From positions 1 to 53,582 of IMG/VR virus record IMGVR_UViG_3300036770_002010: 53,582 nt of DNA; one strand, 5' to 3'. Positions within the stretch are counted from its first letter, which is position 1. Each line of letters opens with the position of its first letter. Below, one piece after another: positions 36,159 to 42,127 of this stretch. The position numbers and the translations under genes were made by a program. This stretch comes from a virus. The notes beneath the pieces were generated by a model that worked only from the letters and a program-made list of their open reading frames with translations, ran no database searches and was not told the origin of the DNA.

Positions 36159-36165
36159 AAGAAAT

Positions 36166-36200
36166 AGAGTAGTAGCAATAGTTACTACTCTTTCTTTTTT
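36166..36200 (+). terminator. Terminator of cassette 2
   Basis: AGAGTAGTA pairs with TACTACTCT, 8-base loop, followed by TTCTTTTTTT. Confidence 0.8.
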
Positions 36201-36226
36201 TAAAGTAAGTGTATATATATTACACA

Positions 36227-36261
36227 AACTAATGTAATGGATATTTTATCTTGAACCAAAA
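36227..36261 (+). promoter_or_regulatory. Early cassette upstream element, copy 3
   Basis: AACTAATGTAATGGATATTT followed by TATCTTGAACCAAAA. The 5' part differs from the other copies, while the ATGGATATTT and TTGAACCAAAA parts are kept. Confidence 0.55.
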
Positions 36262-36269
36262 TTAATATT

Positions 36270-36461
36270 ATGTTTTCACAAGAAGAATTTGGAGAATTAC
36301 TAGTGTTAGCACTAGAAAAAGCGTATGATGATTTAATATCATTACCAAAGAATGAGAAATATTATAATACAAAATTGTATAATACTATTCTCACTCGTTA
36401 TGAAAAAACAGTAGAAATTTGTAATTTCTATGTTGAACATTCAGATGATTTAATATGGTAA
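36270..36461 (+). CDS. Small early protein (63 residues), cassette 3
   Basis: An acidic, helical protein (MFSQEEFGELLVLALEKAYD) with many Tyr and Asn residues in the middle. It has its own upstream element and a terminator with GAAA tetraloop. No known family. Confidence 0.65.
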   Translation: MFSQEEFGELLVLALEKAYDDLISLPKNEKYYNTKLYNTILTRYEKTVEICNFYVEHSDDLIW

Positions 36462-36467
36462 TAAAAT

Positions 36468-36499
36468 AAGAGTAATAGAAATATTACTCTTCTTTTTTT
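36468..36499 (+). terminator. Terminator of cassette 3 with GAAA tetraloop
   Basis: AAGAGTAATA pairs with TATTACTCTT around a GAAA loop, followed by CTTTTTTTC. Confidence 0.85.
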
Positions 36500-36517
36500 C
36501 ATACTATATATTCATAT

Positions 36518-36550
36518 ACTTATATAATGGATATTTCTTTTTGAATCAAA
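36518..36550 (+). promoter_or_regulatory. Early cassette upstream element, copy 4
   Basis: ACTTATATAATGGATATTTC followed by TTTTTGAATCAAA. The start codon is 25 bases further on, more than in copies 1-3. Confidence 0.6.
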
Positions 36551-36575
36551 TGTTTAATCTTAAAAAATAATTACA

Positions 36576-36824
36576 ATGAATTTAAAAAAAGATTTTGGAA
36601 CTGTTTATTTAGAAACAAGTATCAAAAAAGGAGAATTTGATTATTATAAAGCCATTAAATCTTTAATGGATAATAATGGTTATAATACTGCATCTTGTGA
36701 TATTTGTTCAGTAGAAACAGAATGGAATAATGAAGAAGTTGATATAAAATTCAAATTTGTTCATTATTCTGTATCAACTATGAGTACAGAACCTTTCTTT
36801 AAAGTTAAGTTTAAAGAAGCGTAG
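36576..36824 (+). CDS. Small early protein (82 residues), cassette 4
   Basis: An acidic alpha/beta protein with CDIC near residue 41, then strands (VDIKFKFVHYSVSTM). The opening MNLKKDFGTVYLETS predicts a short helix and strand. It is framed by its own element and terminator. Function unknown. Confidence 0.65.
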   Translation: MNLKKDFGTVYLETSIKKGEFDYYKAIKSLMDNNGYNTASCDICSVETEWNNEEVDIKFKFVHYSVSTMSTEPFFKVKFKEA

Positions 36825-36830
36825 TAAAAT

Positions 36831-36860
36831 AGAGTAGTAGAAATACTACTCTTATTTTTT
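36831..36860 (+). terminator. Terminator of cassette 4 with GAAA tetraloop
   Basis: AGAGTAGTA pairs with TACTACTCT around GAAA, followed by TATTTTTT. Confidence 0.85.
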
Positions 36861-36881
36861 ATACTACACAACTATATATAT

Positions 36882-36908
36882 ACTTATATAATGGATATTT
36901 CTATTTGA
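36882..36908 (+). promoter_or_regulatory. Early cassette upstream element, copy 5
   Basis: ACTTATATAATGGATATTTC followed by TATTTGA. The CAAAA leader is displaced to about 20 bases later. Confidence 0.6.
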
Positions 36909-36937
36909 TATTAATTTTTAATCTTAAATCAAAATTT

Positions 36938-37189
36938 ATGGAAATTATTTGTATTTACAAAACAAATAATAATTGTATTGCATTCATTGCACCTTTTTAT
37001 GAAGGTGATGATATACATGAATGTGAAATAGTTTTATCAAACTCTTTAAAAGATAGATTAGAAAATCATAAAAGATTAATGGAATGGGATACAGACCTTA
37101 ATCCATTAGAATTTAATGATTATGAAAAAGCTCATAAATACGCATTTAGTATCGCTTTTAAAGGTCTTGATTATGATGAATATCATTGA
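36938..37189 (+). CDS. Small early protein (83 residues), cassette 5
   Basis: Start at the ATG at 36938 (MEIICIYKTNNNCIAFI); the upstream in-frame TTG lies in the promoter-like element. The protein is acidic, with a strand-rich first half, then DRLENHKRLMEWDTDLNP and a C-terminal YAFSIAFKGLDYDEYH. No known family. Confidence 0.65.
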   Translation: MEIICIYKTNNNCIAFIAPFYEGDDIHECEIVLSNSLKDRLENHKRLMEWDTDLNPLEFNDYEKAHKYAFSIAFKGLDYDEYH

Positions 37190-37198
37190 ATAAAAACA

Positions 37199-37229
37199 AG
37201 AGTAGTAGTAATACTACTCTACTTTTATA
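37199..37229 (+). terminator. Terminator of cassette 5 with GTAA tetraloop
   Basis: AGAGTAGTA pairs with TACTACTCT around GTAA (a GNRA loop), followed by ACTTTTA. Confidence 0.8.
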
Positions 37230-37279
37230 CTTCGTATAAAACTATTACTATAACTAATGTTAATGTAATTAATAGATGC

Positions 37280-37310
37280 ACTTATATAAAGGATATTCCC
37301 TTTTGTTATA
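37280..37310 (+). promoter_or_regulatory. Early cassette upstream element, copy 6
   Basis: ACTTATATAAAGGATATTCC followed by CTTTTGTTATA. The most diverged copy, 34 bases before the start codon. Confidence 0.5.
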
Positions 37311-37343
37311 GTTTTTTTGTTTTACTTTTAAAAACTTTTAAAG

Positions 37344-37820: not shown

Positions 37821-37833
37821 TTTCAATAGAGTT

Positions 37834-37866
37834 AAGAGAGTTAGCAATAACTCTCTTCTCTCTTTT
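37834..37866 (+). terminator. Terminator of cassette 6 with GCAA tetraloop
   Basis: AAGAGAGTTA pairs with TAACTCTCTT around GCAA, followed by CTCTCTTTTT. Confidence 0.85.
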
Positions 37867-38215
37867 TCAACTATTTTAGTTGATTAGATACTGGGAACTA
37901 ATGCGCGGAGCTAATGCCCGACTGTCGCTGTTACACTTTTACTTTCTTTGTTACACTTTTGCGTTTTACTGTCTAACTATTTGTAGTTAAAATGTTGATA
38001 GTGAATGAGTTGAGTGTGTGAATGGGAGTGATTACTCATCAAACACCCATTTTCAACTCATTTCGCTATTGATACCATTTGTTATATCTTGATAATACTA
38101 TTTAGTGTTAATGTAAAATATTTGATTAAAACCTAATTTACGAAGACAAGTATTGCAGCTTGTATGTATTAAATTAGGCATCAAATAAAAAAACTTAATA
38201 ACTTTCCAAGTTGTC
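37867..38215 (+). other. Non-coding stretch with strong secondary structure
   Basis: No credible ORF. ATAGTGAATGAGTTGA (37998-38014) pairs with TCAACTCATTTCGCTAT (38053-38069), enclosing ATGGG/CCCAT and GAGT/ACTC hairpins. Further on CCTAATTTA (38132-38140) pairs with TAAATTAGG (38170-38178) around ACAAG/CTTGT. The first 120 bases hold two copies of GTTACACTTTT. Probably one or two small RNAs or a long leader. Confidence 0.5.
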
Positions 38216-38314
38216 GAGGACACCAGTTTCTTTGATAAATACTATTGTAAAGACCGTAATTGGAACGACTTTAGTTTAATTGTTGCAACGACAGTTTATC
38301 AAAGTTTTAGGTGT
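38190..38314 (+). ncRNA. Repeated structured leader RNA, copy 1
   Basis: An A-rich tract and short hairpin are followed by the conserved block GAGGACACCAGTTTCTTT (38216-38233). CTTTGATAAA (38230-38239) then pairs perfectly with TTTATCAAAG (38295-38304), followed by the conserved TTTTAGGTGT. The next start codon is 26 bases downstream. Copies 2 and 3 have different closing-stem sequences that still pair. Confidence 0.65.
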
Positions 38315-38339
38315 AAAACACAAATCAAAATCAATTAAT

Positions 38340-38705
38340 ATGAAAAATTTATTATGGTGTGCAAATCACCAACCATTACAAGAACAACTTGATTCATTAA
38401 ATGAAATGGGTAATGTTATCTTTTTAAAAGATATATATCCTGATATTATGAATCAATTGAGTAACACTCCACCAAGTAGAAGTGAATGTAGGATTTTAGC
38501 TGGTACTATTTCAGTTATTGCTGAAGAGTTAGATGCTAAGATTGTACAGTTAGGTGGTAGTCCATTATTCTTAGTAATGGCAAGTCCTATTATTGGTAGT
38601 GGTAGAATGATATTCGCTGATTCAGATAGAATATCAGAAGATATACCACAACCAGATGGTAGTGTTAAAAAGATTTCAACTTTTAAACATAAAGGTTGGT
38701 CTTAG
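38340..38705 (+). CDS. Putative Csx20-like ring nuclease (possible anti-type III CRISPR protein)
   Basis: Start at the ATG at 38340; an upstream in-frame TTG lies in the structured RNA. The 121-residue protein begins MKNLLWCANHQPLQEQLDSL. It has an LKDIYPDIMNQLSNTPP segment, then KIVQLGGSPLFLVMAS, and ends DGSVKKISTFKHKGW. From memory, Csx20 ring nucleases show the same order: a start like LLLFNH-LT-EQ, a LP--LQ-LW--IPP segment, D-VLVQGD-GATYLMV, and an end like DG-V----FKHVRFR. Ring nucleases degrade the cyclic oligoadenylate alarm of type III CRISPR. Family membership is inferred by eye and the binding residues are not proven. Confidence 0.45.
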   Translation: MKNLLWCANHQPLQEQLDSLNEMGNVIFLKDIYPDIMNQLSNTPPSRSECRILAGTISVIAEELDAKIVQLGGSPLFLVMASPIIGSGRMIFADSDRISEDIPQPDGSVKKISTFKHKGWS

Positions 38706-38712
38706 TATTACA

Positions 38713-38738
38713 GTAGAGTGGTAGTAATATCACTCTAC
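38713..38738 (+). terminator. Hairpin after the putative ring nuclease gene
   Basis: GTAGAGTG pairs perfectly with CACTCTAC, 10-base loop, 7 bases after the stop codon. No clear T run follows, so it may stabilise or process the RNA. Confidence 0.5.
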
Positions 38739-38756
38739 GATTGTTAATTAATAATA

Positions 38757-39015
38757 TGATATGAAAACATTTAAGACAGAGCTGAAAACTCTTTAAACTT
38801 ATTCTAAGTGATTTAGAAATCACGTATGTCCTGACTTTAACTACAGAGTAATTAACTGTGGGAATGGACTCTAACTTTAATGTATCATTCTAGTTTCACA
38901 AGGACTGGCAGTTGTAATAATATTCTCCCATCGTGGTAAGAACAGAGAACTATACTATGTGAGTATAGAATAAAATAATTTCATTGTATTGAAATACATC
39001 TATTACAACTGAATA
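38757..39015 (+). ncRNA. Structured non-coding RNA candidate
   Basis: About 260 bases without an ORF. GTGATTT/AAATCAC forms a perfect hairpin, GAATG pairs with CATTC, and CAGTTGTAATA pairs perfectly over 11 bp with TATTACAACTG, enclosing CTATACT/AGTATAG and a TTTCA/TGAAA hairpin. It ends just before copy 2 of the repeated leader RNA. Confidence 0.5.
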
Positions 39016-39023
39016 CAGAGTGA

Positions 39024-39206
39024 ATAAAAAAAATCTCATTTGAGGACACTAGTTTCTTTTACTTATGTTTAATTAGAGTAATTAAAATTATTTAGTTTAA
39101 AGCTTAGAGTATTACATCAACCTAGGATAAGATGTAATATGCTCAAAACCGCAACTTACTAAATAACTCTTGAATTAAACCGAACAAATTGTAAAAGTTT
39201 TATAGT
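39024..39206 (+). ncRNA. Repeated structured leader RNA, copy 2
   Basis: Conserved block GAGGACACTAGTTTCTTT starts at 39042. Nested stems follow: CTTTTAC/GTAAAAG (39056/39191), GTTTAATT/AATTAAAC (39067/39173), TATTTAGT/ACTAAATA (39089/39158) and GAGTATTACATC/GATGTAATATGCTC (39107/39131). The conserved AAAGTTTTA and TGT come next, 32 bases before the start codon at 39238. The stems differ in sequence from copies 1 and 3. Confidence 0.7.
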
Positions 39207-39237
39207 GTATTTTTATTATTAACCAAAACCTAAATAT

Positions 39238-39432
39238 ATGAATAACAGAACAAAGATTACTAATGATAAATTCTCTATAAGAATTTGTCAAATAGCTTCT
39301 AATTATGGATTTAAGAATATTGGTAGTTTCCATAAATTCTTAAAGCAATGTAGTCCTAATGCTAAATTAGGATTAGAAATGGGTCACATAAGAGTGGCTA
39401 ATATCCTCAAAGAAGTTGAGGAATGTTTTTAA
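39238..39432 (+). CDS. Hypothetical small basic protein (64 residues)
   Basis: Begins MNNRTKITNDKFSIRICQIA and contains a helix-turn-helix-like layout (YGFKNIGSFHKFLKQCSPN), ending in an acidic helix (NILKEVEECF). It is preceded by the structured leader copy 2 and followed directly by copy 3, so it is an isolated unit. Function unknown. Confidence 0.6.
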   Translation: MNNRTKITNDKFSIRICQIASNYGFKNIGSFHKFLKQCSPNAKLGLEMGHIRVANILKEVEECF

Positions 39433-39620
39433 ATAAAAAACTCAATAACAATCAAAGTTATTGGAGACATTAGTTTCTTTATAATACATTAAGACGAAGT
39501 TAGTATGATAGACGAAATCACAATTAAGTGCTACAGTTTAGTAAAAATATCATATAACTAGTGCGTAAGCATTGGGTTAAGCAGTTAAGTAAAAATTAAT
39601 GTATTGTAAAGTTTTAAATG
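39431..39620 (+). ncRNA. Repeated structured leader RNA, copy 3
   Basis: After an AATAAC/GTTATT hairpin comes GGAGACATTAGTTTCTTT. CTTTATAATACATTAA (39477-39492) pairs over 16 bp (one G-U) with TTAATGTATTGTAAAG (39596-39611), and AGTTA-TATGATA pairs with TATCATATAACT inside. CAC/GTG and TGC-GTAA-GCA hairpins follow, then the conserved AAAGTTTTA. The next start codon is at 39657. Confidence 0.7.
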
Positions 39621-39656
39621 TCTTATTTTATACTAAATAAAAACCTATATATATAT

Positions 39657-39851
39657 ATGACAGATAAAGTTTGGGGATTAAAATCTAGTGCTATAACATC
39701 TAAGAATGATATAGCATATCATGGTTCTACTATTAAAGTAGAACATACTTGTATTAGAGGAAAACTATTTACTTACTATCAATTAGTTGATAATAATTGG
39801 ATAGAAATTACTGAAGAAGAACTTAGAGTATTATTAAACCAAAACTTATAA
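39657..39851 (+). CDS. Hypothetical small protein (64 residues)
   Basis: Start chosen at 39657 (MTDKVWGLKSSAITSKND) because it has the same spacing after an AAAAACCTA leader as its neighbour. The ATG at 39618 lies in the conserved end of the structured RNA. The protein is strand-rich in its middle (KVEHTCIRGKLFTYY) with an acidic helix at the end, like a small SH3-type fold, but no family is recognised. Confidence 0.6.
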   Translation: MTDKVWGLKSSAITSKNDIAYHGSTIKVEHTCIRGKLFTYYQLVDNNWIEITEEELRVLLNQNL

Positions 39852-39855
39852 TATT

Positions 39856-40095
39856 ATGACAAAAGAAAAGATTTACTGGAAAATGCGTAATGGTAATTTA
39901 ATAGACATAGATGATATGGATATTGAACACTTACGCAATACGCTAAAACTTGTGTTAAGAAATAGAGAAACAGTTATTAAAAGAATTGTTGAAGCTAAAT
40001 CTAAACGTAAGTTTAAATTACAAGGGGATATGGCTAATGAGTTTAACAAAAGCCAATATGAGAATGACGAATACGATGAATCATTAATGCACTAA
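39856..40095 (+). CDS. Hypothetical charged protein (79 residues)
   Basis: Highly charged helical protein (IEHLRNTLKLVLRNRETVIK, then EAKSKRKFKLQG) with an acidic C-terminus. It is 4 bases after its upstream neighbour and 2 before the lysin-like gene, forming a small operon with them. Function unknown. Confidence 0.6.
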   Translation: MTKEKIYWKMRNGNLIDIDDMDIEHLRNTLKLVLRNRETVIKRIVEAKSKRKFKLQGDMANEFNKSQYENDEYDESLMH

Positions 40096-41806: not shown

Positions 41807-41927
41807 AGCAAGGTGGCGGAATTGGTAGACGCTATTATCTGAAAGGCTGAATGCGAGTAACTTCGATGTTACATAGACCTTGGTAGGTAGGAACAGCCAC
41901 ATGTGAGTTCGAATCTCACTCTTGCTA
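41807..41927 (+). tRNA. tRNA-Leu-like element with disrupted anticodon domain
   Basis: The acceptor stem AGCAAGG/TCTTGCT with discriminator A, a leucine-type D arm (GCGGAATTGGTAGACGC) and a T arm (GTGAG-TTCGAAT-CTCAC) are all intact. The 70 bases between D and T arms contain no normal 5-bp/7-base anticodon arm. Instead there are GGCTG/CAGCC enclosing GTAAC-TTCGAT-GTTAC and ACCT/AGGT. At 121 bases it is about 35 longer than a normal tRNA-Leu. It could be an intron-containing tRNA, a pseudo-tRNA or a dedicated tRNA-like RNA. I cannot assign a decoding specificity. Confidence 0.55.
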
Positions 41928-42005: not shown

Positions 42006-42127
42006 AGTCAAGTAGCTCAGTGGGTTAGAGCAACTGGTGACGACGGTTCGAGTCCGTTCCATACGAAAGTATGAGGTGTGTAGGGTATCAAGCGAGTGTG
42101 TCATAGGTTCGAATCCTATCTTGACTA
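42006..42127 (+). tRNA. tRNA-like element with inserted second T-arm-like hairpin
   Basis: Acceptor AGTCAAG/CTTGACT with discriminator A, a normal D arm (GCTC-AGTGGGTTA-GAGC) and a normal T arm (ATAGG-TTCGAAT-CCTAT) are present. Between them are about 70 bases instead of about 22. ACTGG and CGAGT could form a mismatched anticodon stem enclosing GACGG-TTCGAGT-CCGTT (T-arm-like) and CATAC-GAAA-GTATG. Length 122 bases. No clean anticodon loop is seen. The spacer 41928-42005 before it has a CAGAC/GTCTG pair and no gene. Confidence 0.55.

Follow-up and report, generated by a model that had tools for sequence, protein, structure and literature searches.

The window, ie the whole 53,582-nucleotide stretch of viral DNA that was analysed (IMG/VR record IMGVR_UViG_3300036770_002010), carries three copies of a structured RNA, type I, which belongs to a family whose fold is kept by selection and which we could not find described in Rfam or in the open-licence literature. 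From 5' to 3' the element comprises an A-tract, a hairpin at the 5' end (P0), the lower stem P1, an internal loop rich in U (AGUUU on its 5' side and UUUUA on its 3' side), the upper stem P2, an apical part that varies and, in most members, an AAAAC tail to which GUUUU is complementary. Strong sequence conservation across phages is seen at the ends of the element (A6, the loop UUYCCAAG, AGUUUC, GUUUUA and UAAAAC), while only P2 and its apical part, of 8 to 200 nt, vary freely. P0 can be exchanged for another hairpin (L018, L108) or may bear a variable extension of its own (AAAAAACUCAAUAUAAAAUAUCC...GGAUUUCCAAGAUGUUGAG). The tail is missing in L019 and in window copies 2 and 3, all three of which keep the 5' A-tract. 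The original prediction was of a three-copy repeat with complementary stems, and every block and stem that it named was located in its place; P1, P0, the tract of six to eight A residues and the U-rich loop between P1 and P2 were added here. Its view that the fold rather than the sequence is selected was half right, since selection on the fold is confirmed but the ends are strongly conserved in sequence across phages.

All three copies lie on the + strand and show the shared plan on minimum-energy folding of each copy alone, with shuffle z-scores of -2.2, -3.3 and -5.7 for copies 1, 2 and 3, respectively. Copy 1 (38187-38319), identified by sequence, fold, the covariance model and an interior identical to that of L020, consists of the A-tract (38187-38193), P0 (38194-38218), P1 (38220-38224/38310-38314), the U-rich loop (38225-38229/38305-38309), P2 (from 38230/38304) and the tail AAAAC (38315-38319). 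Copy 2 (39026-39208) was identified by its fold, the covariance model and an interior that is the same as in L040. It has an A-tract at 39026-39033, P0 at 39035-39044, P1 at 39046-39051/39203-39208 and P2 at 39056-39062/39191-39197; its internal loop is 4x5, the first A of the loop being paired. In copy 3 (39435-39622), recognised by its fold, the covariance model and a fully compensated P1, the corresponding parts are at 39435-39440 (A-tract), 39441-39466 (P0), 39466-39471/39617-39622 (P1) and 39477-39492/39596-39611 (P2). P1 is completely compensated across the three copies, as ACACC/GGUGU, ACACUA/UAGUGU and GACAUU/AAUGUC in copies 1, 2 and 3. Each is followed by a small open reading frame on the same strand: 121 codons after copy 1 (38340-38705, no family match), 64 after copy 2 (39238-39432, no significant family match) and 64 after copy 3 (39657-39851 from the ATG at 39657, no family match). 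A second in-frame ATG for the last of these is at 39618, within the RNA element, and copy 3 itself begins directly after the stop codon of the preceding ORF.

Several other features of the window were noted in passing. A noncoding region of 365 nt (37821-38186), with repeated GTTACACTTTT, separates a 158-aa ORF from copy 1 and contains a long inverted repeat at about 38010-38065. At 36163-37325 (+) small genes are divided by a repeated, terminator-like hairpin with a T-run (AGAGTAGTAGAAATACTACTCT), which is followed by a repeated, promoter-like TATAATGGATATT block; these separators contrast with the RNA-separated genes at 38.2-39.9 kb. Two tRNA-like RNAs of about 122 nt (41807-41927 and 42006-42127, +) have acceptor, D and T arms and a long abnormal anticodon region. 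They are tRNAs by Rfam and not by ARAGORN, similar sequences are present in L014, and they may be mimics of tRNA or tRNAs that carry inserts.

A covariance model was trained on a set from which the window and three near relatives had been left out, and its E-values are rough. It ranked the three window copies first, with E-values of 2e-20, 3e-4 and 2e-5 for copies 1, 2 and 3; the scores were 97.5 bits for copy 1 and 33.4 and 28.2 bits for the other two, against 11.1 bits for the next match. The three copies are therefore not due to chance. In copies 2 and 3 the model aligned the 5' half correctly and misplaced the 3' half, because P1 and the interiors have diverged. Searches of IMG/VR found the 3' block AAGTTTTAGGTGTAAAAYRC in at least 119 stretches, both blocks together in 19 (chance expectation far below one, by a rough estimate) and the 5' block alone in 43, among them L038, which lacks the 3' block and looks like a chance hit. 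The pattern of P0 plus loop, with P1 left free, gave 108 matches, of which a few are chance occurrences without any fold. Altogether 110 distinct elements fold. These counts are lower bounds, and many of the rows are related and hence are not independent events.

The 110-element set had been accepted by pairing and was therefore not used as evidence of pairing. Instead, 86 elements were re-selected by means of anchors outside the tested pairs. Pairs 2, 3, 4 and 5 of P2 are formed in 86, 86, 82 and 77 of these, using all Watson-Crick combinations, compared with means of 71, 43, 35 and 44 when partners were shuffled. A MAFFT alignment of 51 sequences gave 92.4% paired cells (85.0% shuffled) and 76 doubly changed cells (24 shuffled), and versions of the structure that were slid along this alignment were all far worse than the true register. 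P1 varies as A-T/G-C/G-T at one pair and once as C-G/A-T at another. In P0 one pair occurs as U-G, U-A and C-G, a weaker signal than that of P2.

Rfam 15 (4227 families) yielded nothing credible on the elements at gathering or permissive thresholds, the only matches being the two to tRNA elsewhere, and the suggestion that the RNA falls in no described class is upheld. It was to have been given up had there been no homologues, no covariation or an Rfam hit; homologues and covariation beyond the three window copies were found and an Rfam hit was not. The open-licence literature yielded no paper dealing with noncoding or structured RNA of crAss-like phages. Noncoding and intergenic elements go unmentioned in the 2021 survey of crAss-like genomes (PMC7886860), and the main text of a survey of structured RNAs in the gut names no crAss phage, though its supplement may hold an automatic prediction (PMC8040213).

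Carriers of type I come from gut and water. They include the named gut crAss-like genomes cr6_1, cr128_1, cr60_1, cr109_1, cr118_1, cr114_1, cr53_1, cr115_1, cr113_1, cr10_1 and cr272_1, together with unannotated gut phage records in the phage collection, where no annotated feature lies beneath the matches. Those whose taxonomy was looked up are Suoliviridae, apart from cr128_1, which is assigned to Steigviridae. A crAss-type terminase was detected in 28 of 29 carrier records tested, as well as in crAss001 and phi14:2. The large terminase subunit of the window is closest to that of phi14:2 among the matches listed, the others being all from crAss-like phages or gut phage records. Judged by these genes, the carriers, including the 53.6 kb window record, are crAss-like phages. 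The terminase gene contains 4-14 in-frame TAG codons in cr6_1, cr60_1, G015, G018, G020, G021, G025 and G026, which is consistent with TAG recoding. No credible match to type I was obtained in the cultured phages crAss001, crAss002, DAC17 and phi14:2, and none in plasmids. Five exact-block hits in bacterial species genomes, searched with one sequence variant, all lacked the 3' block and were judged to be chance. As far as the collections were searched (bacterial genomes with the one variant), type I is a phage family.

In whole-record searches most genomes have a single type I copy. Two identical copies in G001 proved to be the two ends of one contig, accompanied by one diverged neighbour. In 27 of 28 genomes (G009 is the exception) the terminase is encoded on the other strand and the element lies 3 to 25 kb upstream of it; measured as circular distance, the median over all 28 is 8.7 kb. 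Type I is therefore close to where the divergent arm begins, opposite the arm of the structural genes. The prediction that it precedes small genes is supported. That arm is probably the early one, as judged from crAss001 and phi14:2 (PMC8375218). In the gut crAss-like phages L059, L061-L063, L205 and L206 the stretch around the element, about 0.5 to 2.2 kb in length, has no annotated genes and seems to contain additional hairpins.

An ORF of at least 25 codons (TAG allowed as sense) begins within 62 nt of 79 of 103 elements and does not in the remaining 24. With a stricter ORF rule the figure was 61 of 99; as a control, random positions, coding sequence included, gave 14%. Most of the ORFs are unrelated to each other, and no conservation is visible upstream of the element among unrelated loci. 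A terminator-like hairpin occurs within 110 nt downstream in only 3 of 109 elements, so that transcripts probably run on; a strong intrinsic terminator is directly 3' of the element in L180 and L094. A conserved upstream SSB-like gene was considered and dropped, being found in some gut phages only and unsupported for the whole set, with a label that is itself a guess from sequence. A small protein, YWKMRNGxLIxVDDMDxxHLRNxLK, recurs in the window (39856-40095, +) and in L012, L014, L018, L019 and L042, at up to about 1.2 kb beyond the element.

The original prediction had named a riboswitch-like switch among its suggestions, and this the neighbouring genes do not support, as they are unrelated, have no common function and seldom follow a terminator-like hairpin. 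A ligand- or temperature-sensing switch, for example one in which P1 alternates with the local hairpin GUUUUA-GGUG-UAAAAC, would agree with the conserved sequence of the internal loop, and the alternative hairpin can form in nearly all tail-bearing copies. That hairpin is worth only -3.2 kcal/mol, whereas the complete P0/P1/P2 fold reaches -20.3 in L033, and window copies 2 and 3, like L019, cannot form the hairpin. A bistable 3' hairpin was accordingly rejected as energetically weak and not universal, and we regard sensing of either kind as highly unlikely.

Twelve pairs of elements have interiors that are 78-100% identical. Ten of the twelve have flanks that, on both sides, are no more alike than background (51-57%, against a background mean of 53% and a maximum of 59%); copy 1 and L020 form one pair with identical interiors and background-level flanks. 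Near-identical interiors between unrelated flanks indicate that type I is exchanged as a cassette, moving between phages as a unit and keeping its position on the arm. The simplest route would be recombination through the conserved ends. The PeSL cassettes of T4-type phages are mobile regulatory modules composed of an early promoter and a simple stem-loop. Like them, type I is a short intergenic module before unrelated, variable small genes, is common to genomes with different flanks and, in being exchanged between phages, allows gene shuffling; it differs in being a multi-helix covarying RNA and in belonging to another phage group. Clear exchange between genomes, a conserved position, a usual single copy and the shape of an inverted repeat with conserved ends and a variable middle might also be expected of a DNA-level element misread as RNA, either a replication origin or a recombination site like integron attC. 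This is very improbable: the orientation is consistent with the arm in 27 of 28 genomes, and this strand makes use of G-U pairs (20 of 50 at one pair of P1, and 55 U-G cells in P0) where the opposite strand would have A-C mismatches.

Tentatively, and with somewhat less than even confidence, we take type I to be an exchangeable structured intercistronic leader among early accessory genes, its mechanism being inferred. The element would be transcribed together with its operon, among the accessory genes of the arm that lies opposite to the structural one. The RNA would fold to a compact core, with P0 beside P1, the U-rich internal loop and P2 with its free apical part, and an unstructured A-rich stretch would run from the core to the next AUG. 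The core could then isolate and protect the start of whichever small gene follows, through a stable or processed 5' end, and could keep the A-rich region where ribosomes enter free of pairing with upstream sequence. Shine-Dalgarno pairing is of little importance in Bacteroidota. Protection that is indifferent to the gene would allow one module to serve unrelated genes and to pass between phages by recombination in the conserved ends. Covariation, the ORF close behind most elements, the unrelatedness of these ORFs, the fixed strand and arm, the ten exchanged interiors and the rarity of downstream terminators all favour a leader, as does the way in which the three copies and the type II RNA described below punctuate a run of small genes in the window. 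Several points count against it. Most genomes have one copy although such arms hold many small genes, short ORF spacing is common in compact phage genomes regardless of the element, and a generic leader leaves the sequence-conserved loops across diverse phages unexplained; the 24 elements with no ORF start within 62 nt and the terminators behind L180 and L094 also fit poorly. In T7, RNase III processing sites of the R1.1 type lie between early genes. Type I is like them in having a long stem with an internal loop in a leader between early genes, and differs in its loops and tail conserved in sequence across diverse phages, its apical part on P2 of 8 to 200 nt and the extra P0.

We only slightly prefer a leader to a stand-alone or processed noncoding RNA, acting in trans or as a scaffold, for which the downstream gene would be incidental. 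Such an RNA, a serious possibility if one we would not bet on, would have a hypervariable apical payload and a conserved terminal domain to which a factor of the host or the phage binds. It would account for the usual single copy in a fixed place in the genome, exchange as a unit, the lack of a link to any gene family, the terminators behind L180 and L094 and the long stretches without annotated genes around the element in gut phages. It is harder to reconcile with the 106 of 109 elements that have no terminator-like hairpin directly behind them, with upstream sequence that is not visibly conserved among unrelated loci, with the ORF start within 62 nt of most elements and with window copy 3, which starts right behind a stop codon.

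Triple-helix stability elements of the ENE and MALAT1 type are described in eukaryotes and their viruses. The order of parts in most type I elements, ie stem, U-rich strand, stem, U-rich strand, stem and A-rich tract, resembles theirs. The stand-alone RNA might thus have its 3' end sealed by a similar triple helix (AGUUU/UUUUA with the AAAAC tail or the 5' A-tract) and carry a variable apical payload acting on the host or its defences, making it a widespread trans-acting RNA of crAss-like phages. We consider this improbable. The loop is not uniformly U, the tail has only four A residues and three members lack it; the 5' U-run varies (U3 or U5) with the 3' strand and tail unchanged, and length compensation between U-run and A-tail in type I found no support. 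Y RNAs, the partners of Ro60/TROVE, also have a conserved terminal stem and internal loop with a variable distal part, and one of the early genes of crAss001 codes for a TROVE protein (PMC8375218). Identity with Y RNA was rejected: PF05731 (TROVE) was found in none of 20 carrier genomes, crAss001 has no type I match, and Rfam gave no match.

A second class of covarying RNA, type II, immediately precedes copy 2 (38881-39017, +; fold z = -2.6 for 38878-39024). Its parts are an outer stem UGUAU/AUACA (38881-38885/39013-39017), a hairpin (38889-38908) and, at 38909-39011, a long stem CAGUUGUAAU/AUUACAACUG that encloses a variable interior. The same plan is found at other loci, with outer stem UGCAC/GUGCA, hairpin CUCACUUCCCAAGGGUGAG and the long stem CAGUUGUAAU/AUUACAACUG around a variable interior; besides the window these include L028 (4735-4877), L082 and L086. 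The outer stem is completely paired in 78 of 84 cases, in forms including UGCAC/GUGCA, UGUAC/GUACA, UGUAU/AUACA and UGCAU/AUGCA, and a 25-base block of type II is present in 97 IMG/VR stretches. Type II also precedes several other type I elements, sometimes more than once per locus. Both types have a hairpin loop of the CUUYCCAAG type, which may point to a common binding factor.

In many human gut viromes crAss-like phages predominate, and little is known of how their early program is run. Type I, a conserved family positioned close to where one arm begins and absent from Rfam, is carried by at least 10 named crAss-like genomes from the gut and by many from water, and offers a marker of that program and a handle on it. 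Types I and II together suggest that crAss-like phages separate their accessory genes with exchangeable structured RNAs.
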